From positions 3,410,001 to 3,474,000 of the forward strand of contig NZ_CP134706.1 in assembly GCF_038246755.1 (NCBI RefSeq): a stretch of DNA of 64,000 bases. Direction: 5' to 3'. Of this stretch, positions 549 through 22,203 are shown in pieces. The position numbers and the translations under genes were made by a program. Under the pieces are notes generated by a model that was not told where the DNA came from, made no database searches, and saw nothing but the letters and a program-made list of their open reading frames with translations. The first letter of the stretch is position 1. Each line of letters begins with the position of its first letter. The stretch comes from Micromonospora sp. FIMYZ51 (GTDB taxonomy: Bacteria; Actinomycetota; Actinomycetes; Mycobacteriales; Micromonosporaceae).

Positions 549-562
549 CTAAATCGGTTTAG
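549..562. promoter_or_regulatory. LacI-family operator, CTAAA-type (site 1)
   Basis: CTAAATCGGTTTAG is a near-perfect palindrome sitting just ahead of the GH32-like start codon and behind the lacI stop. It matches the sites at 1843 and 22157 except around the centre. Binding here would block initiation or early elongation of the GH32-like gene. Confidence 0.7.
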
Positions 563-637
563 CTCGCGACCCGGGGTTGCTTCTCGAAAAACCGCGAGGC
601 GCGAGACGTGGTCACCGTCGAGCGCGCTCGTCCGTCC

Positions 638-1663
638 TCACCTGGCGGGGGTGCTGACCGACCGGCGTCGGCGCAGCGGCATCGGTACCAGCACCGAGCC
701 GCGACCGTCGTCGTCGAGCAGCAGCTCCACGGCCCGGCGCCCCATCTGCTCGTGCGGCAGCGCGGCGGTGGTGAGCCCGGGGCGCAGCCAAGAGGCGATC
801 GGGTCGTCGTCGAAGGAGACCACCGAGATGTCGTCCGGAATGGTCAGGCCGGCCTCGCCGAGCGCCTGGTAGGCGCCGAAGGCGAGCCGGTCGTTCATGC
901 AGATGATCGCGCTGGGCCGCGCCGCCTGGCTGAGTAGCGCACGGGTCGCGGCGTAGCCGTGTTCCGGCAGCCACTCCGGGCAGAAGACCTCGGTGAACAA
1001 CGTGACGTCGGCGGCGGCGAGGGTGTCCCGGATGCCGTGCAGCCGCGCCTCCGCCGCGAGCGAGATCTCCGGATCGCGTTCTTTCTGCCGGTTGCGCCCG
1101 ATCAGCGCGATCCGGTCGCGATGGCCCAGCGCGAGCAGTGCCTCGGCGACCGTCGCGCCGGCGCCCTGGTCGTCCGGGAGCACGCTGGGCAGCTGCGTCG
1201 CGCTTGTGGCGTTGAGCAGCACCACCGAGGCGCCGAGGATCGCCGACGGCACCGCGAGCCGGCGGGTCGCCATGGCCGCGTAGATCACGCCGTCGACCTG
1301 GCGGTCGAGCATCGCCTCGATCGCGTACTGTTCGAACGTCGCGTCACCCTGGGTCTCGGTGATGAGCAGCACGTGGTCGCGCTCGCGGGCGGCATCCAGC
1401 GCGCCCCGGATGAGGCCGCCGGCGAAGCGGGTGGTGGCGACGATGTCGGAGACGAACGCGATGGTGGCCGTCTTGCGGGTCCGTAAACTGCGCGCGGCGA
1501 TGTTGGGCCGGTAACCGAGTTCCTCCGCCGCCGCGAAGACGCGTTGGTGCGCCTCCGCGGAGAGTCGGGTGCCCTCCCGCCCGTTGAGCACCATCGAGGC
1601 GGCGGTCTTGGACAACCCTGCCCGCCTGGCGACGTCTGCCAGGGTTGCTCGGTCGCGGCCCAT
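638..1663 (-). CDS. LacI-family transcriptional regulator
   Basis: The 341-residue protein has an N-terminal LacI helix-turn-helix (ATLADVARRAGLSKTAASMV, residues 5-24), a hinge helix and a periplasmic-binding-like effector domain ending with SVVSFDDDPIASWLRPGLTT. The frame is open for 58 more codons upstream, but ATG 1663 is chosen because GGAGGA lies five bases before it and the HTH then starts at the usual place. Its gene is flanked by two copies of the CTAAA-type operator (549 and 1843), the usual arrangement for a local sugar-responsive repressor that controls its neighbours and itself. The ligand is unknown; it is likely an intermediate of the sugar imported by the adjacent ABC system. 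Confidence 0.9.
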   Translation of the reverse strand: MGRDRATLADVARRAGLSKTAASMVLNGREGTRLSAEAHQRVFAAAEELGYRPNIAARSLRTRKTATIAFVSDIVATTRFAGGLIRGALDAARERDHVLLITETQGDATFEQYAIEAMLDRQVDGVIYAAMATRRLAVPSAILGASVVLLNATSATQLPSVLPDDQGAGATVAEALLALGHRDRIALIGRNRQKERDPEISLAAEARLHGIRDTLAAADVTLFTEVFCPEWLPEHGYAATRALLSQAARPSAIICMNDRLAFGAYQALGEAGLTIPDDISVVSFDDDPIASWLRPGLTTAALPHEQMGRRAVELLLDDDGRGSVLVPMPLRRRRSVSTPAR

Positions 1664-1811
1664 GAGTCCTCCGATCGCGGCCGGTCGTTTCGATGCCGCA
1701 GTTGCACCCATCATGATGGGTGGTGTCGCCGGGCTGGTCATCGGTGGGCGGCCGGAGTCCACCGAGTCCGTCTCGTGAACCAGTCGTTTCCGGACCGTTG
1801 CCAACTCCTCC

Positions 1812-1858
1812 TTGACAGTCCCAAGCATCACGCGCATGCTCTGCTAAATCAGTTTAGC
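1812..1858 (+). promoter_or_regulatory. Promoter with CTAAA-type LacI operator (site 2)
   Basis: A consensus -35 TTGACA (1812-1817) is followed after 17 bases by CATGCT (1835-1840) and then the palindrome GCTAAATCAGTTTAGC (1843-1858), so the operator covers the expected transcription start. The direction is toward the binding-protein gene at 2028. The same arrangement recurs on the other strand at 22157-22203. Confidence 0.65.
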
Positions 1859-2027
1859 GACGAGGTTCAGCCGCTGGCGGAGGCGTTGTCCGCCAAGTCT
1901 TCATTGGGAACGCGAGCCACGCAATCGGCGCGCGACGTCCGACGCGACCGGCCCGACGGCCGGGGCCGGTGGACGCCGACCGGCCGCCGATCGGCCCGGT
2001 TCGCGGACGAGTTCAAGGAGCATTGAG

Positions 2028-3389
2028 GTGCCGGAGTTCTCGACCAGATTCAGCCGCCGCCGGCTGGCACTGTTGGTGCCACTGTTGGCCGCCGGCCTGA
2101 CCATCACCGCGTGCAGCGCGCCCGGCTCCGAGCAGACCGCGTCGAACGACTCCGACGCCGAGGTCAGCACGGAACTGGGCACCGATCCGATCACCTTGGA
2201 GATGTACGCCGAGACCGGCTTCCCGCTGGCCAAGGCGCTCGCCGACGAGTTCACCAGGCAGCACCCGCACGTCAAGTTCAACGTCCGTGAGGACCAGTTC
2301 ACTGTCATCGTGGAGAACGCGCCACGGGTGCTCGCCTCGGACAACGCGCCCGACATCATCCGGCTGCCCACCATGGTCGACCTGGTCAAGGACGGGCTGC
2401 TGAAGAACCTGGACCCGTACTTCGACGCGTACGGCTGGGACAAGTTCCCCGCCTCGCAGCTGGTCCAGCTGCGGCTCACCGACGGCGGCGCGGAGCGGGG
2501 CAACGGCTCGCTGTACGGCATGGGGCTCGGTTACAGCGTGACCGGCGTCTTCTACAACAAGAAGCAGGCCGAGCAGATCGGCATGACCCAGCCGCCGGCC
2601 ACCATCGCCGAGTTCGAGGACCTGCTGGCCAAGGCCAAGGCGGCCAACCTGCTGCCGATCATGCAGTTCAACAAGAACACCGCCGGCATCAACTTTCCGC
2701 ACCAGGCGCTACAGAACCAGTTCGGCGACCCGACCCAGATCGCGGACTGGATCTTCCAGAAGCAGGGTGCCACCTTCGACACCCCGGCCGCGCTCAAGGC
2801 GACCCAGACCATCCAGAAGTGGGCTCAGGCCGGCTACTTCCCGAAGGACGCCAACGCCATCGACTACACCGCGATGATGGGCGAGTTCCAGAAGGGCAAC
2901 GGCGTGTTCATGTTCAACGGCGACTGGGAGTCGGCGAACCTGGACAAGAACATGGCCGGTGAGGTCGGGTTCTTCCTCTTCCCGGGTGAGACCGCCGACG
3001 CCAAGAAGGTGGCGATGTCCGCGCCGAACACCTTCGGGGTCGGTGCCCGGGGGAAGAACGCCGACGCCGCGGCCTACTTCCTGAACTGGGTGCACACCAA
3101 CGACAAGGCCCGGGAGATCTCGGTGAACGTCGGTGGCTCGCACCCGGGCGGCCCGAGTGAGCTGCCGCTGCCGGCGGTGACCGACGGCACCGTACTGGCC
3201 GAGACGCTTAAGGCATCGCAGCAGCTCGGTGCCGACAACGGCGCCGTCGACTTCACCGCGAACGCCACCGGCGGTATCTTCGCCGCGGCCATCACTCCCG
3301 AGATGCAGAAGCTGATCGCCGGCCAGCAGACCCCCGAGGGGTACGTCAAGGCGGTCCAGGCCGAGTACGAGAAGGAACTGTCCCGATGA
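2028..3389 (+). CDS. ABC sugar importer, substrate-binding lipoprotein (CUT1 type)
   Basis: This 453-residue protein is an extracellular solute-binding protein family 1 member. It has an arginine-rich N-terminus, a hydrophobic segment and a lipobox (TITAC, lipidated Cys about residue 29). GTG 2028 is preceded by AAGGAG at 2014. The downstream gene overlaps it by four bases, and two MalF/MalG-type permeases follow, so this is the receptor of a CUT1-type importer that lacks its own ATPase gene; such systems normally share an MsiK-like ATPase encoded elsewhere. The substrate is not readable from sequence. The GH32-like neighbour suggests an oligosaccharide. Confidence 0.9.
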   Translation: MPEFSTRFSRRRLALLVPLLAAGLTITACSAPGSEQTASNDSDAEVSTELGTDPITLEMYAETGFPLAKALADEFTRQHPHVKFNVREDQFTVIVENAPRVLASDNAPDIIRLPTMVDLVKDGLLKNLDPYFDAYGWDKFPASQLVQLRLTDGGAERGNGSLYGMGLGYSVTGVFYNKKQAEQIGMTQPPATIAEFEDLLAKAKAANLLPIMQFNKNTAGINFPHQALQNQFGDPTQIADWIFQKQGATFDTPAALKATQTIQKWAQAGYFPKDANAIDYTAMMGEFQKGNGVFMFNGDWESANLDKNMAGEVGFFLFPGETADAKKVAMSAPNTFGVGARGKNADAAAYFLNWVHTNDKAREISVNVGGSHPGGPSELPLPAVTDGTVLAETLKASQQLGADNGAVDFTANATGGIFAAAITPEMQKLIAGQQTPEGYVKAVQAEYEKELSR

Positions 3390-4354
3390 CGTCTGCCCTT
3401 GGCAGCGCTCCCGCCGGGTCGGGCATCGCCCGACCCGGCGGGGGGACCCCCGATCAACCCGTGCGGCCCCACCGGAAGCGGCGGGGCCGCACGGCCCGGT
3501 GGATCGGCTGGCTCTGGGTCCTGCCCGCCCTGATCATGTACGCCTTCTTCGTGCTGCGCCCGCTCGCGCTGACCGTGCAGTACTCGCTCTACCAGTGGAA
3601 CGGCATCGGCGCGGCCACCTGGGTCGGGCTGGAGAACTACCTCACCGTCTTCACCGACCGCGACCTGCTGAAGATCATCTCGAACGCGTTCATCCTGATC
3701 ATCTTCTTCAGCTTCATCCCGGTCGTACTCGGCCTGCTGGTGGCCAGCCTGGTCCGGCGGATCACCACCGGCCCGGCCGGCACCGTGGTCCGTACCGTGC
3801 TCTTTCTGCCCCAGGTGATCCCGCTGGTGGCCGCCGGTATCGCCTGGAGCTGGATGCTCTCCAGCAGCGGCCTGATCAACCAGGCGATGCGCGCCGTCGG
3901 GCTGGACGGGCTCACCCGGTCCTGGCTCGGTGAGTTCAGCACCGCGCTGCCGGCGGTGGGCGTGATCGGCACCTGGGTCATGCTCGGCCTGTGCACCATC
4001 CTGCTGGTCACCGGCATGAGCAAGATCGACCCGTCGCTCTACGAGGCGGCGCGGATGGACGGCGCCGGCCCGATCCGGGAGTTCTTCGCCGTCACCCTGC
4101 CCAGCCTCCGCCAGGAGATCGGTGTCTGCCTCACCGTGACCGTCATCGCGGCCCTGGCCAGCTTCGACATCGTCTACATCTCCACCAGCGGCGGCCCGGG
4201 CATCCAGACCACCGTGCCGGGGCTGGAGATCTACCGGCTCGCCTTCTCCCAGCGACAGGTCGGGCTCGCCTCGGCCCTGGGCGTGGTGCTGATGCTGCTG
4301 GTCCTGGTCTGCGTACTGCCGATTCAGCGGCTGACCCGAGGGGAGAAGGCGTGA
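3386..4354 (+). CDS. ABC sugar importer permease (MalF-like)
   Basis: The protein has 322 residues and six predicted membrane spans, with the BPD-transport EAA loop YEAARMDGAGPIREFFAVTLP near residues 212-232 that contacts the ATPase. The chosen ATG overlaps the stop of the binding-protein gene (ATGA) and has AAGGA nine bases upstream. The first 25 codons encode a Gly/Pro/Ala stretch whose DNA is a 15-bp perfect hairpin (3410-3442). An in-frame GTG at 3461 is therefore an alternative start that would leave the hairpin intergenic, but its ribosome-binding site is poor. Confidence 0.9.
   Translation: MTSALGSAPAGSGIARPGGGTPDQPVRPHRKRRGRTARWIGWLWVLPALIMYAFFVLRPLALTVQYSLYQWNGIGAATWVGLENYLTVFTDRDLLKIISNAFILIIFFSFIPVVLGLLVASLVRRITTGPAGTVVRTVLFLPQVIPLVAAGIAWSWMLSSSGLINQAMRAVGLDGLTRSWLGEFSTALPAVGVIGTWVMLGLCTILLVTGMSKIDPSLYEAARMDGAGPIREFFAVTLPSLRQEIGVCLTVTVIAALASFDIVYISTSGGPGIQTTVPGLEIYRLAFSQRQVGLASALGVVLMLLVLVCVLPIQRLTRGEKA
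3410..3442 (+). other. 15-bp perfect hairpin behind the binding-protein gene
   Basis: The arms 3410-3424 and 3428-3442 are perfect reverse complements with a three-base loop (ATC). The hairpin begins 21 bases after the stop of the binding-protein gene. It may protect or terminate part of the transcript so that the receptor is made in excess over the permeases. It has no U-run, so strong termination is not assumed. Confidence 0.7.
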
Positions 4355-5178
4355 ACATGACCAGTCGCGGTGAGCGGCTGACCGGACGCATCTTCCTGAT
4401 CGCGCTTGTCGTCGTCACCCTGCTGCCGTTCCTGAGCATGTTGTCCGCGGCGCTGCAACCGCGCGGCACCGTGCCGACCGGCCTGGCCTGGCCGTCGGAC
4501 CCCCAGTGGGGCAACTTCGCCGACGCCTTCACCGCCGCCAACATGGGCGCCCTGCTGAAGTCGAGCATGCTGATCGTGGCCGTGGTGGTGCCGGTCGGCG
4601 TACTCATCGCCACCATGGCCGGCTTCGGGCTCGGCCACCTGCGGGTGCCCGGCGGTCACATCGCGTTCGGCCTGCTGCTGCTCGGCCTGACCCTGCCCTT
4701 CGAAGCGGTGATCACCCCGCTGTACTACCAGATGCGGGACCTGGGTCTGCTCAACACCCGATGGGCGATCATCCTGCCGCTGATCGGCCTCTACATGCCG
4801 TTCGCGGTCTTCTGGATGCGGGCGCACTTCACAAACGTGCCGCCCGAGTTGTCCGAGGCGGCCCGGGTCGACGGCAGCAACACCTGGCAGCTGTTCTGGC
4901 GGGTGCACGTGCCGCTGGCCCGACCGGCGATCGCCTCGCTGACGATCCTGCTGTTCCTCTGGACCTGGAACCAGTTCCTGCTCGCCATCGTGATGGTCGA
5001 CGATGCCACCAAACGGACCATGGCCGGCGCGCTTGGCGCGTTTCAGGGACAGTGGGGGACCGATCTGGTGCTGCTCTGCGCCGGGTCGCTGCTCATCCTC
5101 ACCCCCACCCTCATCGTGTTCCTGATCTTCCAGCGACAGTTCATCAAGGCCCTGCTCCAGGGCTCCGTGAAGGGATAG
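4351..5178 (+). CDS. ABC sugar importer permease (MalG-like)
   Basis: This 275-residue inner-membrane protein has six hydrophobic segments and the EAA loop LSEAARVDGSNTWQLFWRVHVPLA, typical of MalG-type permeases. GTG 4351 is preferred over ATG 4357 because GGGGAG lies five bases before it and it overlaps the upstream stop by four bases (GTGA), implying translational coupling. With the MalF-like protein it forms the membrane channel of the CUT1 importer. A serine hydrolase gene follows after four bases. Confidence 0.9.
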   Translation: MNMTSRGERLTGRIFLIALVVVTLLPFLSMLSAALQPRGTVPTGLAWPSDPQWGNFADAFTAANMGALLKSSMLIVAVVVPVGVLIATMAGFGLGHLRVPGGHIAFGLLLLGLTLPFEAVITPLYYQMRDLGLLNTRWAIILPLIGLYMPFAVFWMRAHFTNVPPELSEAARVDGSNTWQLFWRVHVPLARPAIASLTILLFLWTWNQFLLAIVMVDDATKRTMAGALGAFQGQWGTDLVLLCAGSLLILTPTLIVFLIFQRQFIKALLQGSVKG

Positions 5179-5182
5179 CGAG

Positions 5183-6331
5183 TTGACCGACCCGCAGATC
5201 CACGGCGTTGTCGACGACGGCTTCGGCCCGGTCGCCGACGTGTTCCGGGACAACTTCGCCCACCGTGGGGAGGTGGGCGCCGCGGTCGCCGTCTACCTGC
5301 GCGGACGCAAGGTCGTCGACCTGTACGGCGGACTGGCCGACCCGCGCTCCGGCCGCCCCTGGACCACCGACACGCCCGCCGTCGTCTTCTCCGTCACCAA
5401 GGGGATCATGGCGATCTGCGCGTACCTGCTGGTGCAGCAGGGCCGGCTCGACCTGGACGCGCCGGTGACCCGCTACTGGCCCGAGTTCGGCCAGCACGGC
5501 AAGGCGGAGATCCCGGTCCGTTGGCTGCTCACCCACCAGGCTGGCCTACCGGCGCTGGACAAGCCGTTCACCCGCGAGGAGGTGCTCGCCTGGGACCCGG
5601 TGATCGAGGCGATCGAGGCACAGGCCCCGCTGTGGAAGCCGGGTACGGCGCACAGCTACCACCCGATCACCTACGGCTGGCTGATCGGTGAGGTGATCCG
5701 CCGGATCACCGGGGAACTGCCCGGTGCCTTCTTCGCCCGTTCCCTCGCCGAGCCACTTGGCCTGCGTACCTGGATCGGTCTGCCGGCGACCGAACGCGAC
5801 GCGGTGGCCTGGATGCTGGCACCGATCGGTGACCTCGGCCCGGAGAGCGACCCGGTCGCCGATCGCGGGATCACCATGGGCGGCGCCTTCGCCTTCCCCG
5901 CCGACGAGAACGGCCTGGTCAGCTTCAACGACCCGGCCATCCAGGCGGCCCAGATCCCGGGCGCGGGCGCGGTCAGCACCGCCGAGAGCCTGGCCCGCCT
6001 CTACGCCGCCTGCGTCTCCGAGACCGGCACACCACGGCTGCTCAGCACCGCCACCGTCGACGACGCGATCACCGTCCGCGCCGCCGGCCAGCAGGTGTAC
6101 GGGCATCCCGACGCCGGGCACCGCTGGGGCACCGGATTCCTCGTGCACTCGCAGCCCCGCCCGATGCTCGGCGAGCGCAGTTTCGGTCACGACGGCGCGG
6201 GCGGGCACCTGGCCTTCGGTGACGACACCCACCAGGTCGGCTTCGGTTACGTCGTGAACCAGATGGGTGGCGTGGACGACGAGCGGGCCAACCTGCTCAG
6301 CGCCGCGGTGCGGGACTGCCTGGCCGGATAG
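5183..6331 (+). CDS. Serine hydrolase, beta-lactamase/EstB family
   Basis: The 382-residue protein has the class C beta-lactamase fold motifs: SxxK as SVTK at about residues 70-73, a Tyr motif region (YHPITYGWLIGEVIRRITG) and a C-terminal GHDGAGG box in place of KTG. It has no signal peptide, so it is probably a cytoplasmic esterase or amidase rather than an antibiotic-resistance enzyme. TTG 5183 is the start, with AAGGGA about eight bases upstream. It lies four bases behind the permease gene and so is the last gene of the importer operon. Such enzymes often deacylate imported compounds; the substrate is unknown. Confidence 0.85.
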   Translation: MTDPQIHGVVDDGFGPVADVFRDNFAHRGEVGAAVAVYLRGRKVVDLYGGLADPRSGRPWTTDTPAVVFSVTKGIMAICAYLLVQQGRLDLDAPVTRYWPEFGQHGKAEIPVRWLLTHQAGLPALDKPFTREEVLAWDPVIEAIEAQAPLWKPGTAHSYHPITYGWLIGEVIRRITGELPGAFFARSLAEPLGLRTWIGLPATERDAVAWMLAPIGDLGPESDPVADRGITMGGAFAFPADENGLVSFNDPAIQAAQIPGAGAVSTAESLARLYAACVSETGTPRLLSTATVDDAITVRAAGQQVYGHPDAGHRWGTGFLVHSQPRPMLGERSFGHDGAGGHLAFGDDTHQVGFGYVVNQMGGVDDERANLLSAAVRDCLAG

Positions 6332-6381
6332 GGTCGCCCGCTGGCGGGACACGGTGCCCGAAGCACGCCTCGGCGGGCACC

Positions 6382-7352: not shown

Positions 7353-8000
7353 CGGGTTGCTCCAATCGGTTGCGCGTCCGGAAGCCACCCTGCCACCCGG
7401 GACCGACAGAACCGGCGCGATCAGACCGGGTAGCCGGGGTCGGCGACCGTCTCGGCGATGCGGCTGAGCCAGTGCAGATCGTTGGTTCTGGCTTGCGGAC
7501 TGGTATCGGGGTCGAGGATGGTGCCAACAAACTCGGCCGCGTCGTCGAGGTGCCGATCGCTGCGGTGGTAGCTCAGCCGGCGGGCCAGATCGCGCCCGCG
7601 ACCCGGCCGCGAGCCGTGCTGGGGGTCGCCAGCGCGACCAGCGAAACAAGCTGGCAATCTCAGAGCTATCGATGTTAACGTTCCCATGGCGTCCCTGCGT
7701 GCGACGTGTCGCCTCGGCCGGCAGCCTGATGTGACCGCCAACATCGGGTGGTTCACCGGGGCGGCGCTCGCCCCTTCTTGACGCTCGGACGAGCCGCGCT
7801 GGCAGCCCTCACCTCGGGCCGCGCATTCATCTGATGTGTCGCGTGCCGAGGTGTCCACCGAATCGGGAAGCCTCCCGGATTTCCCGGGGCATATCCCTTG
7901 TTGAGGCGTTGACGTTACATGCCTGCTACCCCTAACGTCTGACGTCTAACGCGCGTGAGCTCCACCACCCCCGCCATTCCCGCGTTTTGGAGGGATCGCC
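7353..8000. other. Gene-poor stretch; possible decayed ORF and fucose-type operator
   Basis: No convincing gene fills this stretch. A minus-strand frame (7421-7858) has a plausible C-terminal half (DDAAEFVGTILDPDTSP, then a helix and GYPV) but an unstructured Arg-rich start, so it may be a remnant. The right part holds an ACATCTGATGT-like site at 7827, a possible promoter (TTGACG at 7909, TAACGT at 7934, 19-base spacing) and repeated TAACGTC/TGACGTC words at 7934-7948. Confidence 0.4.
7827..7837. promoter_or_regulatory. ACATCTGATGT-like site (candidate FCD/GntR operator 1)
   Basis: TCATCTGATGT matches the 11-base palindrome ACATCTGATGT at 10 of 11 positions. It lies 164 bases before the Tat mini-ORF and 355 bases before the fucose binding-protein gene. 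Similar sites occur at 14974, 17379 and 17592, all in the same locus. Confidence 0.45.
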
Positions 8001-8099
8001 ATGTCCCGTCCCCCTGTCACCCGTCGTGCGCTGATGGCCGCCCTCGGCGCGGGTGGGGCCGCAGCCACGGTCCTGCTCTGGACCGGCACCACCGCCTGA
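8001..8099 (+). CDS. 32-residue ORF encoding only a Tat-type signal peptide
   Basis: ATG 8001 follows a strong ribosome-binding site (GGAGGG, eight bases upstream) and encodes 32 residues. These contain a twin-arginine motif (TRRALMAALG), a hydrophobic core (GAAATVLLW) and a stop right where a mature protein would begin. The sequence past the stop does not continue in any frame as a recognisable enzyme. It is either the stub of a deleted Tat-exported enzyme or a leader ORF of the following operon; the large hairpin 17 bases after the stop favours a leader/attenuator or a retained terminator. This ORF is below usual gene-calling size. Confidence 0.5.
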   Translation: MSRPPVTRRALMAALGAGGAAATVLLWTGTTA

Positions 8100-8115
8100 A
8101 CCTCTCGCAGGCGCC

Positions 8116-8161
8116 TCCGACGCGTGCATCGCCGGGATCCGTCCCGGCGGCACGCGTCGGA
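8116..8161 (+). terminator. Two-stage perfect hairpin between mini-ORF and fucose importer
   Basis: The outer arms (8116-8127 and 8150-8161) pair over 12 bp and the inner arms (8130-8137 and 8142-8149) over 8 bp, with a TCCG loop and a two-base bulge. It lies 30 bases before the ATG of the binding-protein gene, ending before its GGAGGA site. No U-tract follows. It could terminate the mini-ORF transcript or act as an attenuator. Confidence 0.65.
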
Positions 8162-8191
8162 TCACTTCCTGGAATATATGGAGGATCTTCG

Positions 8192-9256
8192 ATGAAGCAT
8201 AACGCTCTGTTGAGCGTCGGGCTCACCGTGCTGCTCGGCGCTTCGGCCACCTTCGCGGCCGGCTGCGGTGCCGGCTCGAACGAAGGCGGATCGGGCGACT
8301 CCCAGGTCATCGGCGTGGACTACCCCCGCTCCGACACCGACTTCTGGAACTCCTACATCAAGTACATCCCGCAGTTCGCCGACGAGTTGGGCGTCGAGAT
8401 CAAGACCACCAACTCGCAGAACGACATCGCCAACCTCATCTCGAACACCCAGACCTTCATCAGCCAGGGCGTCAAGGGGGTGGTGATGGCGCCGCAGGAC
8501 ACCGCCGCCATCGCGCCTACCCTGTCCCAACTGGAGAGCAAGAAGATCCCGGTGGTCACCATCGACACCCGGCCGGACACCGGCAACGTCTTCATGGTCG
8601 TCCGCGCCGACAACCGCGCCTACGGCATCAAGGCGTGCCAGTTCCTCGGCACCAAGCTCGGTGGCAAGGGCAAGGTCGTGATGCTTCAGGGCGGCCTGGA
8701 CTCGATCAACGGTCGGGACCGTACCGAGGCGTTCAACGAGTGCATGCAGAAGGAGTTCCCCGGCATCACCGTCTTCGGCGAGGCCACCGACTGGAAGGCC
8801 GACGTGGCGGCGTCGAAGCTACAGACCCGGTTCGCGTCGGACCCGGACATCAAGGGCATCTACATGCAGTCGTCGTTCGCGCTGTCGGGCACGCTCCAGA
8901 TCCTCAAGCAGCGGGGCCTTCAGGTGCCGCCGAGCGACCCGAAACACGTCTTCGTGGTCTCCAACGACGGCATCCCCGAGGAACTGAAGAACATCGGCGA
9001 GGGGCTTATCGACGCCACCGTCAGCCAGCCGGCCGACCTCTACGCCAAGCACGGCCTGGCGTACGTGCAGGCGGCGATCGAGGGCAAGACGTTCCAGCCC
9101 GGCCCGACCGAGCACGGCAGCAACATCATCCAGGTGCGCGACGGGCTGCTGGAGGACCAGTTGCCGGCACCCCTGGTCACGCTTGACGGTGCGCCGATCG
9201 CCGGTGAGCCCACCCTGAAGTTCGACGACCCGTCCCTGTGGGGCAACAACGCATGA
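8192..9256 (+). CDS. ABC importer sugar-binding lipoprotein (RbsB-type), probably L-fucose
   Basis: The 354-residue protein has a signal peptide with lipobox (FAAGC, Cys about residue 25) and a periplasmic-binding type 1 fold: IGVDYPRSDTDFW strand, ISNTQTFISQGVKGVVMAPQ and a VVTIDTRPDT hinge strand. ATG 8192 has GGAGGA six bases upstream; the frame continues further upstream but through the Tat mini-ORF region. It overlaps the ATPase gene by four bases. Its position at the head of a run of importer and fuconate-pathway genes suggests L-fucose or a close 6-deoxy sugar as ligand. That ligand is inference. Confidence 0.88.
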   Translation: MKHNALLSVGLTVLLGASATFAAGCGAGSNEGGSGDSQVIGVDYPRSDTDFWNSYIKYIPQFADELGVEIKTTNSQNDIANLISNTQTFISQGVKGVVMAPQDTAAIAPTLSQLESKKIPVVTIDTRPDTGNVFMVVRADNRAYGIKACQFLGTKLGGKGKVVMLQGGLDSINGRDRTEAFNECMQKEFPGITVFGEATDWKADVAASKLQTRFASDPDIKGIYMQSSFALSGTLQILKQRGLQVPPSDPKHVFVVSNDGIPEELKNIGEGLIDATVSQPADLYAKHGLAYVQAAIEGKTFQPGPTEHGSNIIQVRDGLLEDQLPAPLVTLDGAPIAGEPTLKFDDPSLWGNNA

Positions 9257-11824: not shown

Positions 11825-11898
11825 CCGGCTCGGCCCGCCGGCCGGGCCATCGCACGACAGACGACCATGTTCACCTGTTCAAACCTCCAGGAGCTCCG

Positions 11899-14105: not shown

Positions 14106-14189
14106 ATCCGACCGTCCTGCCGGCCGGTTGTGCCCGACGTCCCGGCAGTCGGCCGCCGCCCCGGCCCGCCCGACCGCGCCCGGCGGCGG

Positions 14190-14885
14190 CTACCCGGCCG
14201 CCGGCTTGGCGGCGAGCACCGTACGCAGCCATGCCTCGGAGGTGTTGACATGGATCAACGCGCTGGCCTGGGCGAGCAGCTGGTCGCGCGAGCGCAGGGC
14301 GAGGTAGATCGCCTGATGTTCGTCGATCGTCTTGTGGGCCGCGTTGCCCTCTATCAGGCCGCGCCACACCCGAGCCCGAAGCGTCCGGCCGGAGAGGCCG
14401 TCCAGCAGCGAGGTGAGGGTCTCGTTGCCGGTGGTGGCGACGACGGTGTGGTGGAAGGCGGTGTCGAACTGGATCAGTTTCTCGGCGTCGTCGGCCGCCG
14501 CCCGCATGTCCTCCAGGATCTGGCCGATCTCGTCGAGATCGGCGTCGGTCATCCGCAGCGCCGCCAGGCCGGTCGCCATCGGCTCCAGCATCCGGCGTAC
14601 CTCCATGACCTCCAGGAGGGTGTCGTCACGCAGCAGTTCCACCGCGACGCCGAGCCCTTCCAGCAGCAGCCGGGGGGCGAGACTCGTGACGTACGTCCCG
14701 TCGCCGCGCCGCACGTCGAGTACCCGGGCCGATTCAAGCACCTTCACCGCTTCGCGGACCCCGCTGCGCGACAGCCCCATCTGGGCGGCCAGTTGCGGCT
14801 CGGGCGGCAACCGCGTCCCCGGCGGCAGCTCGCCGCTCTGGATCATGCTCCGGATCTTCGCGATCGCGTCGTCGGTGAGTGCCAT
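14190..14885 (-). CDS. GntR-family regulator, FCD (FadR-type) subfamily
   Basis: The 231-residue protein has an N-terminal winged helix (IRSMIQSGELPPGTRLPPEPQLAAQ, with LSRSGVREAVKVLE) and an all-helical FCD domain whose metal-binding residues include FDTAFHHTVVATTGN and IDEHQAIYLAL. ATG 14885 has AAGGGGG close upstream. It is divergent from the dehydrogenase operon and lies inside the fucose gene block, so it is probably the local repressor, relieved by a pathway acid such as fuconate or its keto-deoxy product. The ACATCTGATGT-like sites at 7827, 14974, 17379 and 17592 are the candidate targets. Confidence 0.88.
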   Translation of the reverse strand: MALTDDAIAKIRSMIQSGELPPGTRLPPEPQLAAQMGLSRSGVREAVKVLESARVLDVRRGDGTYVTSLAPRLLLEGLGVAVELLRDDTLLEVMEVRRMLEPMATGLAALRMTDADLDEIGQILEDMRAAADDAEKLIQFDTAFHHTVVATTGNETLTSLLDGLSGRTLRARVWRGLIEGNAAHKTIDEHQAIYLALRSRDQLLAQASALIHVNTSEAWLRTVLAAKPAAG

Positions 14886-14973
14886 CCACGCCCCCTTCGG
14901 ACCGGCCAGCCGCGCGCCGCCGGCCTGGGCCCGCCGCCTGCGGTCGGCACCGGCAACCCTCACCACTATAGAG

Positions 14974-14984
14974 ACATCGGACGT
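14974..14984. promoter_or_regulatory. ACATCTGATGT-like site (candidate FCD/GntR operator 2)
   Basis: ACATCGGACGT matches 9 of 11 positions and sits in the divergent promoter region between the regulator gene and the dehydrogenase operon. It is well placed for autoregulation and for control of 15047 onward. Confidence 0.4.
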
Positions 14985-15046
14985 TTGCCGGCGACGCGGC
15001 TCGCGCACCGGCCGGCCGACGCGAACCGGAACAACGAGGAGACGGC

Positions 15047-16072
15047 ATGAACCGCAGTGCGCAGTACGTCGGCGAGCGGACCTTCGTGGTCGAACAGACC
15101 GCCACGGTGCCGCCCGGTCCCGGCGAGGTCCGCATCGACGTCGCGTACACCGGCATCTGCGGCACCGACCTGCACATCGCGCATGGCGCGATGGATCAGC
15201 GGGTCCGGGTACCGGCGGTGATCGGCCACGAGATGTCGGGCCGGGTCGCCGAGGTGGGCGCGGGCGTCGCGGCGCACCGGGTCGGTGATCCGGTGACCGT
15301 GCTGCCGCTTGACTGGTGCGGCGAGTGTCCCGCCTGCCGCGCCGGCCACACCCACATCTGTCACCGGCTCACCTTCGTCGGCATCGACTCGCCCGGTTCG
15401 TTGCAGCGATCCTGGACGGTGCCGGCGCGGCTGCTGGTGCCGCTGCCCGGGGACCTGCCGCTGGCACACGGCGCGCTTGTCGAACCGACTGCGGTGGCCG
15501 TGCACGACGTACGGCGGTCCCGGCTCGTCGCCGGTGAGCACGCCGTGGTCATCGGGGCCGGCCCGGTCGGTCTGCTCATCGGCACGGTCGCCCGGCAGAC
15601 CGGTGCCGCGGTGACCGTGCTCGAACTCGACCCGGATCGTCGTGCGCTCGCCGCCGAGCTGGGACTCGACGCGGTGGACCCGGCAACGGTCGACGCGGCC
15701 CGCTACGTCCAGGAGGCCACCGCAGGTGCCGGCGCCGACGTGGTGTTCGAGGTCTCCGGCTCGGCGGCCGGCGTCCGCGCCGCCACCGACCTGCTCGCCG
15801 TACGTGGCCGGCTGGTCGTCGTGGCGATCCACCCCACCCCGCGCGAGGTGGACCTGCACCGGATCTTCTGGCGCGAGCTGGAGGTGATCGGGGTACGCGT
15901 CTACCAGCGCGAGGACTACGCCGAGGCGGTCCGCCTGGTGCAGGGCGGGCAGGTGCCGGCGGACCGGCTGATCACCCGGATCGTGCCGCTGGACGAGGTG
16001 TCGCAGGCGTTCCAGGCCCTCGCCGCCGGGGGCGATGTCAAGGTACTCGTCGACTGTGGAGGAGACGCGTGA
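15047..16072 (+). CDS. Zinc-dependent alcohol/sugar dehydrogenase (MDR family)
   Basis: This 341-residue medium-chain dehydrogenase has the catalytic zinc motifs GICGTDLH and GHEMSGRV, the structural zinc cysteines CGECPACRAGHTHIC, and a Rossmann motif GAGPVGLL. In this setting it most likely oxidises L-fucose to L-fuconolactone, the step otherwise missing from the locus, or else oxidises an intermediate. Most described L-fucose dehydrogenases are SDR or AKR enzymes, so this would be a less usual choice. It overlaps the following SDR gene by four bases (GTGA). Confidence 0.85.
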   Translation: MNRSAQYVGERTFVVEQTATVPPGPGEVRIDVAYTGICGTDLHIAHGAMDQRVRVPAVIGHEMSGRVAEVGAGVAAHRVGDPVTVLPLDWCGECPACRAGHTHICHRLTFVGIDSPGSLQRSWTVPARLLVPLPGDLPLAHGALVEPTAVAVHDVRRSRLVAGEHAVVIGAGPVGLLIGTVARQTGAAVTVLELDPDRRALAAELGLDAVDPATVDAARYVQEATAGAGADVVFEVSGSAAGVRAATDLLAVRGRLVVVAIHPTPREVDLHRIFWRELEVIGVRVYQREDYAEAVRLVQGGQVPADRLITRIVPLDEVSQAFQALAAGGDVKVLVDCGGDA

Positions 16073-16830
16073 ACCCGTTCGACCTGACCGATCGGTTGGC
16101 CGTGGTGACCGGCTGCCGGCGCGGCATCGGCCTGGCGATGGCCGACGCCCTGGCGGCTGCCGGCGCGGACGTGATCGGGGTGAGCGCCGCACTTGAGGAG
16201 CACGGCAGCGAGGTCGCCGAGCGGGTGGCGGCGCACGGCCGCTCGTTCGTGCCGTACCGGGCCGACCTGTCCGACCGCGCCGCCGTCCGCGCGCTCGCCG
16301 AGTGGCTCGGCCAGCGGGAGCGGCCGGTGGACATCCTGGTCAACAATGCCGGCACGATCCGCCGTGCCCCGGCCGCCGAACACACCGACGCCGACTGGGA
16401 CCACGTTCTGGAGGTCGACCTGTCCGCGCCGTTCGTGCTCGCCCGCGAACTCGGTCGGAACATGGTCCAGCGCGGCAGCGGCAAGATCATCTTTACCGCG
16501 TCGATGCTGAGTTTCCAGGGCGGGGTGACCGTGCCGGGCTACGCCGCGGCCAAGTCCGGGATCGCCGGCCTGACCCGTGCGCTGGCCAACGAGTGGGCGC
16601 GCCACGGGGTGAACGTCAACGCCATCGCGCCCGGCTACATCGGCACGGACAACACCCGGGCGCTGCGCGAGCAGCCGGAGCGCAACCGGGCGATCCTGGA
16701 GCGGATCCCGGCCGGGCGCTGGGGTCGCCCCGACGACCTCGCCGGGGTCACCGTCTTCCTCGCCTCCGCCGCGGCCGACTACGTGCACGGCGCCGTCATC
16801 CCGGTCGACGGCGGCTGGCTCGCCCGTTGA
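16069..16830 (+). CDS. SDR dehydrogenase, probably 2-keto-3-deoxy-L-fuconate dehydrogenase
   Basis: The 253-residue protein has the classical SDR motifs TGCRRGIG, NNAGT, an active-site Ser (TASMLS) and YAAAK, and ends GAVIPVDGGWLAR. It resembles KduD/2-keto-3-deoxy-L-fuconate 4-dehydrogenases. It would act after the dehydratase to give 2,4-diketo-3-deoxy-L-fuconate. GTG 16069 overlaps the preceding stop and follows GGAGG. The final hydrolase (FAH family) that would cleave this product to pyruvate and lactate is not encoded in the window. Confidence 0.85.
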   Translation: MNPFDLTDRLAVVTGCRRGIGLAMADALAAAGADVIGVSAALEEHGSEVAERVAAHGRSFVPYRADLSDRAAVRALAEWLGQRERPVDILVNNAGTIRRAPAAEHTDADWDHVLEVDLSAPFVLARELGRNMVQRGSGKIIFTASMLSFQGGVTVPGYAAAKSGIAGLTRALANEWARHGVNVNAIAPGYIGTDNTRALREQPERNRAILERIPAGRWGRPDDLAGVTVFLASAAADYVHGAVIPVDGGWLAR

Positions 16831-16844
16831 TCGAGGTGATGCGA

Positions 16845-17348
16845 ATGTGCGCGTACGTGCCGGCGGCGGTGGACCTCGCCGCCGCCGTCCTGCGCGCCGA
16901 CCCGACCCGTACCGTCGCCGCCCTCGCCGAGGATCTCGGTCGGGCGCGTGAGCGCTTTCCCGGCCTGGCGGGGGAGGCGCTGGCCCTGGCCGCCGCCTTC
17001 GATCTGGCCTATCGCGACCTGCCCGCCAGCCGGCGGCGGCTGCTCCGCTACCTCGGCCTGCACCCGGGCCCGGAGTTCGACGTCGCCGCAGCCGCCGCCC
17101 TGGGCAACCTGACCCTGCTGCATGCCCGGCGAGCCCTGACGGAGCTGCGCGACCGGCGACTGCTCATCGAGACTGGTGGCCGCTTCCGCTTCCCCGACTT
17201 CGTCGCCGCGCACGCCCGCCGGCTCGCCGGTGCGGAGCCCGCCGTGCTCCGCGATGCCGCCCTCGACCGGCTCCGCGATGCCGACCGACGTGCCGCCGCG
17301 CGGGCCCGTCATCCCCCGGACGGAGGAGCCGCCACGGATCACTACTGA
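16845..17348 (+). pseudogene. AfsR/SARP-type regulator fragment (NB-ARC C-terminal part)
   Basis: The 167 residues match only the segment that follows the nucleotide-binding domain in AfsR-like regulators: AFDLAYRDLPASRRRLLRYLGLHPGPEFDVAAAAAL, then a winged-helix-like stretch ending FRFPDFVAAHARRLA. There is no SARP DNA-binding domain, P-loop or TPR array. It directly follows the SDR gene (possible starts from TTG 16827 to ATG 16845; GAGG at 16834 favours the last). It is either a decayed remnant or a free-standing adaptor-like domain. I favour a remnant but the reading frame is intact. Confidence 0.5.
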
Positions 17349-17378
17349 CCGCACGCCCTGGCGTCCAATCCACCGATT

Positions 17379-17389
17379 ACATCTGATGA
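17379..17389. promoter_or_regulatory. ACATCTGATGT-like site (candidate FCD/GntR operator 3)
   Basis: ACATCTGATGA matches 10 of 11 positions, 280 bases upstream of the GH95 start. Confidence 0.45.
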
Positions 17390-17591
17390 ATCAGGGGGAA
17401 CTCGGCGCTGGCTCCGACGTGTCGCCTCGGTGGGATTTGTCGAACGACTGGGTTGAACTCGCTGGCGAATGCTTGTGGGTCGCCGCAGCATGCGACGACT
17501 TTTCCAGCTCAAGGGGCTCGCGGACGGTCGCCTCGCGACCCATGAATTGACCATTGCCTATCCCGGGAGGCGGCGGTAACATTCGCGAAAC

Positions 17592-17602
17592 ACATCATAT
17601 GT
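17592..17602. promoter_or_regulatory. ACATCTGATGT-like site (candidate FCD/GntR operator 4)
   Basis: ACATCATATGT matches 9 of 11 positions and keeps both half-sites. It is 67 bases before the GH95 start codon, a distance suited to direct repression. Confidence 0.4.
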
Positions 17603-17668
17603 CTGGTTGCCTGCTGGCGGGCAGTGGGTGCTTCGGGTGGCCGGATCGATTCACCGGTTGGAGGATCG

Positions 17669-20668
17669 ATGTCAGACCTGACCCGACGGCAGGCCCTACA
17701 GATCGGCGCGGCGGGCGCGGGTGGCGCCCTGCTGCCGCTGCCATGGACCGCCGCGGCCCGAGCGGACACGGCGGCACCACCACAGGTGCTGGCCGCCGGT
17801 GACCTGGCGCTCTGGTACGACCGGTCCGCCGGTACGGACTGGCTGCGGGCGTTGCCGATCGGCAACGGCCGGCTCGGCGCCATGGTGTTCGGCAACACCG
17901 ACACGGAACGCCTACAGCTCAACGAGGACACCGTCTGGGCCGGCGGACCGCACGAGCCGAGCAACCCGCGCGGCCTGGGCGCGCTGGCGGAGATCCGGCG
18001 ACTGGTCTTCGCCAACCAGTGGACCCAGGCCCAGAACCTGATCAATCAGAACATGCTCGGCAACCCGGTCGGTCAGTTGGCGTACCAGACCGTCGGCAAC
18101 CTCCGGCTGGCCTTCCCCGCCGGCAGCGCCGGGCAGTACCACCGGCAACTGGACCTGACCACCGCGACCACCTCGGTGTCGTACGTGACGAACGGGGTGC
18201 GCTACCAGCGCGAGGTGTTCGCCAGCGCGCCGGACCAGGTGATCGCGATGCGGCTGACGGCCGACCGGACCGGCTCGATCACCTTCACCGCCACGTTCGA
18301 CAGCCCGCAGCGGACCTCGGTCTCCAGCCCGGACGGCGCCACGATCGCCCTGGACGGTGTCTCCGGCAACCAGGAGGGCGTCACCGGCCAGGTCCGGTTC
18401 CTCGCCCTGGCTCACGCCACCGTCAGCGGCGGCACGGTGACCAGTTCCGGTGGCACCCTGCGGGTCACCGGCGCCAACAGCGTGACCCTGCTGGTCTCCA
18501 TCGGCTCCAGCTACGTCAACTACCGCAATGTCGGCGGCGACTACCAGGGCATCGCGCGGCGGCAGCTCACCGCCGCCCGGGCCAGCAGCTACGACCAACT
18601 GCGCGCCCGGCATGTCGCCGACTACCAGGCGCTGTTCGGGCGGGTCAGCCTCGACCTGGGGCGCACCTCCGCCGCCGACCAGCCGACCGACGTACGCATC
18701 GCCCAGCACAACAGCGTCAACGACCCGCAGTTCTCCGCGTTGTTGTTCCAGTTCGGCCGGTACCTGCTGATCTCCTCCTCGCGTCCCGGCACCCAGCCGG
18801 CCAACCTCCAGGGCATCTGGAACGACTCGCTGACCCCGGCCTGGGACTCGAAGTACACGATCAACGCCAACCTGCCGATGAACTACTGGCCGGCCAACAC
18901 CACGAACCTGTCCGAGTGCCACGCGCCGGTATTCGACATGGTCAGAGACCTCGCGGTCAGCGGGGCCCGCACCGCGCAGGTGCAGTACGGCGCCGGTGGC
19001 TGGGTCACCCACCACAACACCGACGCCTGGCGGGCCACCTCGGTGGTCGACGGTGCGTTCTGGGGCATGTGGCAGACCGGCGGCGCCTGGCTGGCCACCC
19101 TGATCTGGGACCACTACCTCTTCACCGGTGACGTCGAGTTCCTCCGGGCGAACTACCCCGCGATGAAGGGTGCCGCCCAGTTCTTCCTCGACACGCTGGT
19201 GACCGAGCCGAGCCTCGGTTACCTGGTGACCAACCCGTCGAACTCGCCGGAACTCGGACACCACCCGGACGCCAGTGTCTGCGCCGGGCCCACAATGGAC
19301 AACCAGATCCTGCGGGACCTCTTCGACGGGTGTGCCCGGGCGAGCGAGATCCTGAACGTCGACGCCACCTTCCGGGCCCAGGTGCGGGCCACCCGGGATC
19401 GGCTCGCGCCGAACCGGATCGGCTCGCGCGGCAACATCATGGAGTGGCTCTACGACTGGACGGAGACCGAGCGCAATCACCGGCACGTCTCGCACCTGTA
19501 CGGGCTGGCGCCCAGCAACCAGATCACCAGGCGCGGCACTCCGCAGCTGTTCGAGGCGGCCCGGCGCACGCTGGAGATCCGTGGCGACGACGGCACGGGC
19601 TGGTCGCTGGCCTGGAAAATCAACTTCTGGGCCCGGCTGGAGGAGGGCAACCGCGCCCATGACCTGATCCGCTACCTCGCCACCCCGGCCCGGCTGGCGC
19701 CCAACATGTTCGACCTGCACCCACCGTTCCAGATCGACGGCAATTTCGGCGCCACCGCCGGCATCGCGGAGATGCTGCTGCACAGCCACGTCGGCGAACT
19801 GCACATCCTGCCGGCGCTGCCGACGGCCTGGCCCACCGGGCAGGTGAGTGGCCTGCGCGCCCGGGGCGGGCACACCGTCGGCATCGCCTGGAGCAACGGT
19901 CAGGCCACCGAGGTACTCGTCCGACCGGATCGTGCCGGCACGGTCCGGCTTCGGGGCCGGCTCTTCGCCGGCAACCACACAGTGGTCGACACCACCGACG
20001 GCACGCCGGCCCGCACCACCCGGATCGAGACCGACCTCATCGAGGTCACCGTGACGGCCGGCCGCACCTACCGGGTCACCGGCTCCGGGTCCGGCCCGAC
20101 CACACCGCCGCTGGAGCAGAGCTTCACAAACGCCAGCACCACAAACGACAACAACACCGGTGCCGGCAACTTCGACGGCAACGGCGCCACCCTCTCCGCG
20201 CAGGCACTGGCCGCGGCGGGCGTCACCCCGGGCGCCACCGTGAGCCGTAACGGGGTGAACTTCCGCTGGCCGAACGTCGCACCTGGCGGTGCCGACAACG
20301 CCATCGCCTCCGGGCAGTCGATCGGTGTGACGGGCACCGGCCGCACCCTCGGCTTCCTGGCCACCGGCACCTACGGTGCCGTGTCGGGCACGGCCGCGGT
20401 GGTCTACGCCGACGGCAGCCGGCAGACCTTCACGCTGAGCACCCCCGACTGGTACGGCGGGCCGCACGCCGGTGCCACCGCCGCCATCGTGATGGCGTAC
20501 CAGAACCGGCCTGGAAACCAGCGGCAGAACGTCTCCGCCTGTATCTACTACGTGGGGGTGGGGTTGCAGAACAAACCGGTGGCCCGGGTCGAGCTGCCCA
20601 ACATCAGCGCGCGTCCCGCAGCCAACGTACCGACCATGCACATCTTCGCGATCGCGATCGGCGGCTGA
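17669..20668 (+). CDS. Secreted alpha-L-fucosidase, GH95
   Basis: The 999-residue protein starts with a Tat signal (MSDLTRRQALQIGAAGAGGA) and continues with the GH95 catalytic region: LALWYDRSAGTDWLRALPIG at the N-terminus, NANLPMNYWP with the two active-site Asn, the EWLYDWTETERNHRHVSHLY segment, and DGNFGATAGIAEMLL with the catalytic Asp. It should release terminal (1,2)-linked L-fucose from plant xyloglucan or similar glycans outside the cell. A C-terminal 180-residue module from about residue 815 is joined by a Thr/Pro link; it resembles appended beta-sandwich modules of actinomycete GHs but I cannot name it. ATG 17669 follows GGAGG. It supplies substrate for the fucose importer and pathway upstream. 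Confidence 0.92.
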   Translation: MSDLTRRQALQIGAAGAGGALLPLPWTAAARADTAAPPQVLAAGDLALWYDRSAGTDWLRALPIGNGRLGAMVFGNTDTERLQLNEDTVWAGGPHEPSNPRGLGALAEIRRLVFANQWTQAQNLINQNMLGNPVGQLAYQTVGNLRLAFPAGSAGQYHRQLDLTTATTSVSYVTNGVRYQREVFASAPDQVIAMRLTADRTGSITFTATFDSPQRTSVSSPDGATIALDGVSGNQEGVTGQVRFLALAHATVSGGTVTSSGGTLRVTGANSVTLLVSIGSSYVNYRNVGGDYQGIARRQLTAARASSYDQLRARHVADYQALFGRVSLDLGRTSAADQPTDVRIAQHNSVNDPQFSALLFQFGRYLLISSSRPGTQPANLQGIWNDSLTPAWDSKYTINANLPMNYWPANTTNLSECHAPVFDMVRDLAVSGARTAQVQYGAGGWVTHHNTDAWRATSVVDGAFWGMWQTGGAWLATLIWDHYLFTGDVEFLRANYPAMKGAAQFFLDTLVTEPSLGYLVTNPSNSPELGHHPDASVCAGPTMDNQILRDLFDGCARASEILNVDATFRAQVRATRDRLAPNRIGSRGNIMEWLYDWTETERNHRHVSHLYGLAPSNQITRRGTPQLFEAARRTLEIRGDDGTGWSLAWKINFWARLEEGNRAHDLIRYLATPARLAPNMFDLHPPFQIDGNFGATAGIAEMLLHSHVGELHILPALPTAWPTGQVSGLRARGGHTVGIAWSNGQATEVLVRPDRAGTVRLRGRLFAGNHTVVDTTDGTPARTTRIETDLIEVTVTAGRTYRVTGSGSGPTTPPLEQSFTNASTTNDNNTGAGNFDGNGATLSAQALAAAGVTPGATVSRNGVNFRWPNVAPGGADNAIASGQSIGVTGTGRTLGFLATGTYGAVSGTAAVVYADGSRQTFTLSTPDWYGGPHAGATAAIVMAYQNRPGNQRQNVSACIYYVGVGLQNKPVARVELPNISARPAANVPTMHIFAIAIGG

Positions 20669-20696
20669 CGCCGGACCGCACGCGACGGTTGACGAA

Positions 20697-20744
20697 CCGG
20701 GGCGGGTCGGCCGGATCCACGAAGGACCGGCCGACCCGCCCCGG
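20697..20744. terminator. 18-bp perfect hairpin, bidirectional terminator
   Basis: Arms 20697-20714 and 20727-20744 pair perfectly around a 12-base loop. It lies between the convergent GH95 and esterase genes, 29 bases past one stop and 12 past the other, so it probably serves both. Confidence 0.85.
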
Positions 20745-20756
20745 TGTGCCGGACCG

Positions 20757-22067
20757 TCAGCCCTTTCGCTGGGCCAGCAGCCACTTGAGGATGCTCTGGT
20801 CCTCGTAGGTCGGGCCGTAGGCCGCGTGGTAGTCGGGAAGCGAGAAGACGTCGTTGCCGTACTCGGTGTAGTGCAGCAGCGTGGCGATCTGCTCGGGGGT
20901 CTTGCCCCGCGCCTCGTACGCCGAACGCAGCGCGCTGTGGGAACCACGCGCGAGCGAGATGTTGAGCAGGTGGTCGTTGACGCCGTGGGTGATCCAGAGC
21001 GGGACCTCGCCGGCGGCGATGGCCGTCGCCTGCGCGGCGCTGAGCTGGAAACCGCCGGTGACCAGGCCGGCGGTGAACAGGTCGGGACGCTTGGCGAACG
21101 CCTCCCACAGCAGCCGCGAGCCGTACGAGACGGTGGTGGCGTACACCCGCCCGGTGTCCACCGCGAAGTCCTTGCTGAACTGCTCGACCAGCTTGATCAG
21201 CAGGTCGCCCTCGGCGGGCAGGCCGACGCGCTGGTTCTGTGGCGCCAGCACGATCACGTCCTCCTGGCTGCCCGTCCAACTGGACTGCAACCAGGCGGTC
21301 GCCGGGATGTCGGCGGCGATCTGTACGCCCAGGTTGTCGCCGTCCCAGCCCATGCCGTGCCCGGGCAGCACCACCATCAGCGGGTACTTCTTACCGGGCT
21401 GGTAGTTCTTCGGCAGGTGGTAGTGGTACGGCAGCACCAGGCCGGCGTTGAGGTACGAGCCGTACTGGAAGTCGTCGACGAGCAGGTTGACCGCCGGCTC
21501 GGTGACGCCCCGCGAGAGCTTCGGGGTGGCCTTGGCCAGCACCGGTCCCTTGCCCTTGCCCTTGCCCGGCTGGGCGTGCACGTCCTTGCGCTGCACCACC
21601 TGGGTCGGCAGCTCGGCGTTCACCTTGACGTGGCACAGGAAGGTCGGGCACTTGGAGAGGACGACCGTCCAGCCCAGGTTCTCGTCCGGGTCGAGTTCGA
21701 CGATGACGTACCGGCCCGGCACCGATCTGCGGTCGGCGCGCGAGGTGGGCGCGTCGTTGGTGTAGGTGTGGGTGATCTTCCGCTCGGCCAGCTTCGGCAG
21801 GTCCTCGATCGGGTTGAAGCGGAAGTTGTACGTGGTGTCCGAGACGGCGAAGGTCGAGTTGTCCAGGGTGCGGTCGTTTACCGTCTGGCCGTACTCGACC
21901 GCGACGGCGGAGACCTTCTGGCCGTAGGTGTAGACGGTGGTGATCGGGGTGATGCTCTTGATGCCGTCGCTGGGGCCGCCGTGGTCCTTCGACGCGGCGT
22001 AGGCCGTGCCGGACGAGGCGAGCGCCAGCACCGTGGCGACGGCGATCAGGCTCCTTCGCAGTCTCAT
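20757..22067 (-). CDS. Secreted esterase/peptidase-like alpha/beta hydrolase with N-terminal Ig-like domain
   Basis: The 436-residue protein has a Sec signal (residues 1-25, ending GTAYAA), an N-terminal beta-rich region that resembles the EstA Ig-like domain (ITPITTVYTYGQKVSAVAVEYG), and an alpha/beta-hydrolase domain opening with LPYHYHLPKNYQPGKKYPLMVVLPG. The nucleophile elbow is TVSYGS, a variant of GxSxG. Acid and base candidates are THGVNDH and LPDYHAAYG. Comparable proteins cleave esters on plant polymers, but the substrate here is unknown. ATG 22067 follows AAGGAG. A perfect TTGACA promoter and the same LacI operator as the GH32 locus lie upstream. Confidence 0.82.
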   Translation of the reverse strand: MRLRRSLIAVATVLALASSGTAYAASKDHGGPSDGIKSITPITTVYTYGQKVSAVAVEYGQTVNDRTLDNSTFAVSDTTYNFRFNPIEDLPKLAERKITHTYTNDAPTSRADRRSVPGRYVIVELDPDENLGWTVVLSKCPTFLCHVKVNAELPTQVVQRKDVHAQPGKGKGKGPVLAKATPKLSRGVTEPAVNLLVDDFQYGSYLNAGLVLPYHYHLPKNYQPGKKYPLMVVLPGHGMGWDGDNLGVQIAADIPATAWLQSSWTGSQEDVIVLAPQNQRVGLPAEGDLLIKLVEQFSKDFAVDTGRVYATTVSYGSRLLWEAFAKRPDLFTAGLVTGGFQLSAAQATAIAAGEVPLWITHGVNDHLLNISLARGSHSALRSAYEARGKTPEQIATLLHYTEYGNDVFSLPDYHAAYGPTYEDQSILKWLLAQRKG

Positions 22068-22156
22068 CGGTTCTCCTTGTCGACGTCCGTCTGACCGGAC
22101 ACCCGCTGTCATCGCTTTCGGCGAGCGGTGGTGGGCATGGTGTGGCGGGAACGGTC

Positions 22157-22203
22157 GCTAAACTGATTTAGCAGAGCATCTGCCCAGGACCGCGTCATGT
22201 CAA
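22157..22203 (-). promoter_or_regulatory. Promoter with CTAAA-type LacI operator (site 3)
   Basis: Read on the minus strand, TTGACA (22198-22203) is followed after 17 bases by GATGCT (22175-22180), then the palindrome of 22157-22172, the exact reverse complement of that at 1843-1858. Identity with the 1.8 kb site runs for 26 bases (22154-22179). It drives the esterase and puts it in the same regulon as the first importer. Confidence 0.7.

Follow-up and report, generated by a model that had tools for sequence, protein, structure and literature searches.

A LacI-type operator shared by a sugar importer operon, a GH32-like enzyme gene and scattered esterase genes in Micromonospora

Why should the same promoter-operator sequence stand ahead of two sets of genes some 20 kb apart? 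The question arises in a stretch of 64,000 nucleotides (nt) from Micromonospora sp. FIMYZ51 (contig NZ_CP134706.1, positions 3,410,001 to 3,474,000; the whole stretch is called the window here), in which a LacI-family repressor gene lies between genes for a GH32-like enzyme and a CUT1 importer, and a gene for an immunoglobulin (Ig)-fold esterase, Est, lies far from them. A preliminary description of this DNA proposed that the LacI protein co-controls all three. Our comparative genomics, the only kind of evidence used, supports this proposal through the near-exclusivity of the site in the genome, its co-occurrence with LacI among 151 genomes, positional footprints, Est sites in seven other genera, and an operon in genome G111 (handles beginning with G are genomes, those with L are loci). 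These three units are almost certainly co-regulated by the window LacI. It is highly likely that the protein would serve as local repressor for four transcription units in all, each with the palindrome or a close variant at its promoter.

Direct reading and a script agree on the reported 26-nt identity: ATGCTCTGCTAAATCAGTTTAGCGAC at 1836-1861 (+) is the reverse complement of 22154-22179. It comprises five bases of the -10, two more bases and the operator. The promoter elements proposed for CUT1 and Est are likewise present, as TTGACA, 17 nt, (C/G)ATGCT, 2 nt and then the palindrome. A third copy does precede the GH32-like gene, as had been stated, but its geometry differs, with the operator upstream of an extended -10 instead of downstream of a -10. 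The operators are 16-nt palindromes at CUT1, Est and a fourth target described below (Est2), and a 14-nt palindrome at the GH32-like gene. The GH32-like and Est2 sites have a central CG, which those of CUT1 and Est lack. At the latter two, in the window and in the counterparts at related loci, the core TCAG points the same way relative to transcription and stands without the usual central CG.

A genome scan had been suggested as a check, and we ran it. CTAAANNNNTTTAG occurs at three places in 7,046,848 bases, all inside the window, against a mono-nucleotide expectation of 0.24 genome-wide and none for the reversed control. Within the window, the pattern of the preliminary description with up to two mismatches gives six matches (three places on two strands), where 0.24 are expected on average and none of 100 shuffles reaches six. 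Looser patterns lose this contrast: CTAA-N6-TTAG is found at four places genome-wide (reversed control, four; mono-nucleotide expectation, about 10), and CTAAAYYRRTTTAG with up to two mismatches is found at nine, compared to 11 for its reversed control, so that counts carry information for near-perfect sites only. We rejected chance palindromes on the shuffles, the genome count and the locus footprints.

Across 151 Micromonospora genomes, a LacI orthologue (at least 81% identity) is found in 53 and the strict site in 55, with both in 51; the site thus occurs in 51 of 53 genomes with LacI versus 4 of 98 without. Est is present in 45 genomes, 44 of which have LacI, and Est2 in 38, 36 of which have it. 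GH32-like homologues of at least 75% identity occur in 50 genomes (49 with LacI), and ten further homologues at 59-63% sit in genomes lacking a window-type LacI. The two genomes with LacI and no site, G040 and G054, are missing both CUT1 and the GH32-like gene, and LacI there adjoins the hydrolase gene. Four genomes have the site without LacI (G089, G090, G112 and G123, one match each); reading 10-12 kb around the match in the last three revealed variant cores and no reference gene of the regulon. The Fisher values for co-occurrence are inflated, as the genomes share ancestry and the genes are linked, and we therefore put the weight on site positions.

For these we examined the 30 best-scoring matches each for Est (of 45), Est2 (of 38) and the GH32-like gene (of 60), and 39 LacI loci (30 of 53, plus nine further loci). 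Each of these 30 Est loci has the site 69-91 nt ahead of the match start, along with TTGAC(A/T), 17 or 18 nt and (C/G)ATGCT. When further places read in the 45 Est genomes are counted in, the site is found in 37 and absent in four; the remaining four were not inspected. The CUT1 site is present in 37 of 39 LacI loci, L083 and L128 being without CUT1, and the CUT1 promoter, TTGACA-17/18-CATGCT, is present in 36 of the 37. The invariance of the CUT1 core is partly a selection effect, since rows were picked by core (TCAG or TCAT in one alignment, TCAG in another). The GH32-like operator is kept in 30/30 loci, with 17 strict sites, three with one mismatch and ten with two, and in all 30 it is followed by the promoter sequence TGnTAnnnT, which ends 5-9 nt ahead of the ATG. 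In this position the operator covers the -35/spacer region of a probably leaderless promoter. Where sites are altered, in G006 and G080, the segment LSKTAASMVLNGREGTRLS of the N-terminal helix-turn-helix of LacI shows no change that would account for them.

The fourth CTAA-N6-TTAG site, CTAATTCGATTTAG, was missed by the preliminary description. It lies at genome position 6,832,524, 3.4 Mb from the window, after TTGACA, 18 nt and CACACT, in a geometry similar to that of the window sites. The gene behind it, Est2, encodes 646 amino acids (aa) with a signal peptide by eye, a PF00756 esterase domain (1.7e-11) and a C-terminal Big_3_5 Ig-like domain; among solved structures it is related to the XynZ esterase domain 1jjf (7.5e-19) and to ferulic acid esterases. 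A site with at most one mismatch lies within 400 nt of the match in 28 of 30 Est2 loci, and in 27 of these 28 it follows TTGAC(A/G)-17/18-nA(C/G)ACT. Est2 lacks a site in G143, where it closes the CUT1 operon (first ATG 59 nt past the hydrolase stop), and in G020, a genome without LacI, where its neighbor is an Est copy interrupted by an internal stop. G066 is the second Est2 genome without LacI and has only part of the gene.

These data bear on whether Est2 answers to the window LacI at all. Est2 and a second LacI gene (51-54% identity to the window LacI) diverge in G287 with a site in between, and the Est2 core, CTAATTCG, is unlike that of CUT1 and Est. The regulon might then have three units only, with the Est2 operator a relic or the target of a G287-type LacI. 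We regard this as quite improbable, because a second LacI of this type was not found in the FIMYZ51 genome or in any of the 36 genomes with both Est2 and a window-type LacI, yet the site persists in 28/30 loci, and because Est2 lies within the CUT1 operon in G143. Membership of Est2 in the window LacI regulon appears very likely on these grounds.

Nine Est loci come from beyond Micromonospora and Verrucosispora: two each from Plantactinospora and Virgisporangium, and one each from Acrocarpospora, Nonomuraea, Herbidospora, Streptomyces and Kibdelosporangium. In all nine a site stands no more than 250 nt away: six of these sites are strict, two have one mismatch and one has two. Shuffled controls reach at most two mismatches in 1.1% and at most one in 0.06% of cases. 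Over all 39 Est loci, 35 sites are strict, two have one mismatch, one has two, and one locus (L177, a split gene) has none; the named-record set and the 151-genome set overlap, with many species in both. LacI identity at the Est loci is 77% in Virgisporangium, 82-85% in Plantactinospora and 50-52% in Acrocarpospora, Nonomuraea and Streptomyces; the Herbidospora and Kibdelosporangium loci showed no LacI. An order-level search returned 26 LacI-positive genomes, five of them outside the genus at 49-55% identity. Among six outside-genus LacI loci, including the second copy in G287, five have a one-mismatch site and one (L135) has none. Acrocarpospora (L160:7874-7964) and Nonomuraea (L169:7813-7949) have two sites, not one, upstream of Est.

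Gene order also connects Est to the importer. In G111, the CUT1 operon closes with Est, which stands 34 nt past the hydrolase stop and has no site of its own. Est lies at most about 8 kb from LacI and CUT1 in Virgisporangium, Acrocarpospora, Nonomuraea and Plantactinospora, and at most about 1 kb from the hydrolase gene in G005, G006, G120, G133, L161, L162, L164, L171 and L174. Other genes, about 7 kb in all, intervene in records such as L156-L159, and in G000, G001 and G003 a fucose-type cluster (substrate-binding protein to GH95) separates the hydrolase gene from Est. As the content of the gap varies among species, the 20 kb were either inserted here or lost elsewhere, while the operator stays with Est. 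In the window, 7955-20668 encodes a CUT2 importer, an enolase-superfamily enzyme, an amidohydrolase, dehydrogenases and GH95, and looks like a cluster for catabolism of L-fucose or fucosides. We rejected control of this cluster by the window LacI, as it contains no CTAA-N6-TTAG and is not between Est and the importer in several species.

The identity of the two promoter regions could, in principle, reflect a recent promoter duplication without common regulation, as it takes in the -10 and the bases between -10 and operator, beyond what an operator needs. This explanation has very little to commend it, since in the examined loci of the genus the flanks are far more variable than the promoter-operator module, Est has sites in families with a different promoter, and an Est or Est2 gene that has entered the operon no longer has the site.

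From these patterns we infer binding, repression, an inducer and a substrate. LacI would recognize GCTAAnnnnnTTTAGC or near variants at four units: the gene of the GH32-like cytoplasmic enzyme, followed in this genome, beyond the window edge, by a PfkB sugar kinase gene; the CUT1 operon, whose last gene encodes a putative cytoplasmic esterase, overlooked by the preliminary description; the secreted Est; and the distant Est2, a predicted secreted CE1/feruloyl-type esterase. In the latter three the palindrome closely follows the -10, around the presumed start site; in the first it closely precedes the extended -10. Bound LacI would block RNA polymerase, and a sugar inducer would free the promoter. 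The secreted esterases may then strip a sugar of its acyl groups, possibly hydroxycinnamoyl ones; CUT1 would import the deacylated or partly deacylated product, and the cytoplasmic esterase would complete deacylation. The GH32/GH68-type enzyme would release fructose, to be phosphorylated by the kinase. Coordinates are collected in Table 1.

Table 1. Features of the proposed regulon within the window
Feature	Position	Strand	Remarks
GH32-like cytoplasmic enzyme, 316 aa	1..532 (5' part in window; whole gene L004:7582-8532)	-	PF00251 9e-15
GH32-like gene operator CTAAATCGGTTTAG	549..562	-	16 nt from ATG (532-530); directly upstream of extended -10 TGATACCTT
LacI-family repressor	638..1663	-	PF00356 6e-12, PF13377 1e-28
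CUT1 promoter	1812..1840	+	TTGACA 1812-1817, 17-nt spacer, CATGCT 1835-1840
CUT1 operator GCTAAATCAGTTTAGC	1843..1858	+	2 nt past -10
CUT1 substrate-binding protein	2028..3389	+	PF01547
CUT1 permease A	3386..4354	+	PF00528
CUT1 permease B	4351..5178 (start inferred; open reading frame 3991-5178)	+	PF00528
Beta-lactamase-fold serine hydrolase, cytoplasmic by eye	5183..6331	+	PF00144 2e-70; nearest solved relatives carboxylesterases
Est, EstA-type Ig-fold esterase, signal peptide by eye	20757..22067	-	PF18435 (EstA_Ig_like) 1.6e-28
Est operator, palindrome as at CUT1	22157..22172	-	2 nt past -10
Est promoter	22175..22203	-	TTGACA 22198-22203, 17 nt, GATGCT 22175-22180

The enzymes themselves point to the substrate. 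GH68 and GH32 form clan GH-J, and the GH32-like protein resembles these enzymes in its predicted fold, of the five-bladed-propeller type that levanases and invertases share, and in the motifs WDSW, RDP and the E of HLEVP, which we take to be their catalytic motifs (acidic nucleophile, RDP and acid/base). WDSW, WRDP and HLEVP are invariant in 20 relatives, with D11, R147-D148-P149 and E206 among the invariant residues. Unlike GH68 and GH32 enzymes, the protein is too short for a C-terminal beta-sandwich and appears cytoplasmic (no signal peptide by eye), and its similarity to solved members is weak (3e-9). A clear GH68 enzyme occupies its slot at three loci of other families, which makes a fructoside the probable substrate; that it is an esterified fructoside is an even call. 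One regulon could also exist for feruloylated or acetylated arabino- or xylo-oligosaccharides, with the esterases deacylating hemicellulose fragments and the GH32-like enzyme being GH43-like. We consider this unlikely given the GH68 replacements, GH32N as the better Pfam match (9e-15), and a protein model whose nearest folds, among the best 50 entries listed, are levanases and invertases.

Est aligns with the EstA-type esterase 3doh over nearly its whole length (7e-25), and S314, D365 and H414, invariant in 12 relatives, would form its catalytic triad according to this alignment. It shares an Ig-like N-domain and an alpha/beta-hydrolase domain with 3doh/3doi, presumably from Thermotoga maritima, and differs in a signal/linker of about 40 N-terminal residues and in the proposed LacI control together with an importer and a GH-J-type enzyme. 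The catalytic region of Est2 is like that of CE1 feruloyl esterases (XynZ domain 1jjf and CE1 enzymes linked to carbohydrate-binding modules); it has in addition the C-terminal Big_3_5 domain and the proposed LacI-type control.

A local LacI regulon is a known kind of system. In the main text of a LacI-family survey (PMC4052901), nearly 90% of regulators are local sugar regulators, a central CG is found in the motif of 1173 of 1303, sucrose is served by at least 11 LacI groups with a single actinobacterial lineage, and the word "esterase" does not appear. The local regulons treated there (CscR/ScrR/SuxR for sucrose, BfrR/FruR for fructo-oligosaccharides) resemble the present one in joining LacI to a linked importer, glycosidase and kinase, in the even palindrome and in sites near the start codon; unlike them, it has two secreted esterases and one intracellular esterase, a target 3.4 Mb away and a CG-less core at two of four sites (PMC4052901). 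A literature search combining the regulon's terms found no paper describing it, and the gene content looks new; the esterases, the unlinked target and the CG-less cores are the unusual part. An EstA-type Ig-fold esterase and an unlinked CE1-type esterase thereby gain a testable role, linked to one importer and one sugar-splitting enzyme, and within one genus the operator holds a pathway together while genes enter and leave one operon. Secreted esterases of unclear purpose would be tied to one diet, probably of fructose-containing sugars, perhaps ester-decorated. Tentatively, and short of favoring it, we suggest a dedicated actinomycete pathway for acylated fructosides (e.g., plant sucrose esters or acylated fructo-oligosaccharides), comprising two secreted esterases of different families, one cytoplasmic esterase, one importer and a short GH32/GH68-type enzyme under a single LacI, the operator linking esterase genes spread over the chromosome.

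Some further features lie nearby. In Acrocarpospora and G342, the LacI/CUT1/GH68 loci have an LPMO_10 gene as neighbor (L160:6688-7755 and L181:10378-11190). The window holds a second LacI-family gene at 42438-43415 (genome 3452438-3453415), 38% identical to the G287 LacI, and a different LacI-type operator candidate, TGTGAGCGCTAACACT, at 22436-22451, upstream of a ChvE-type gene at 22514.
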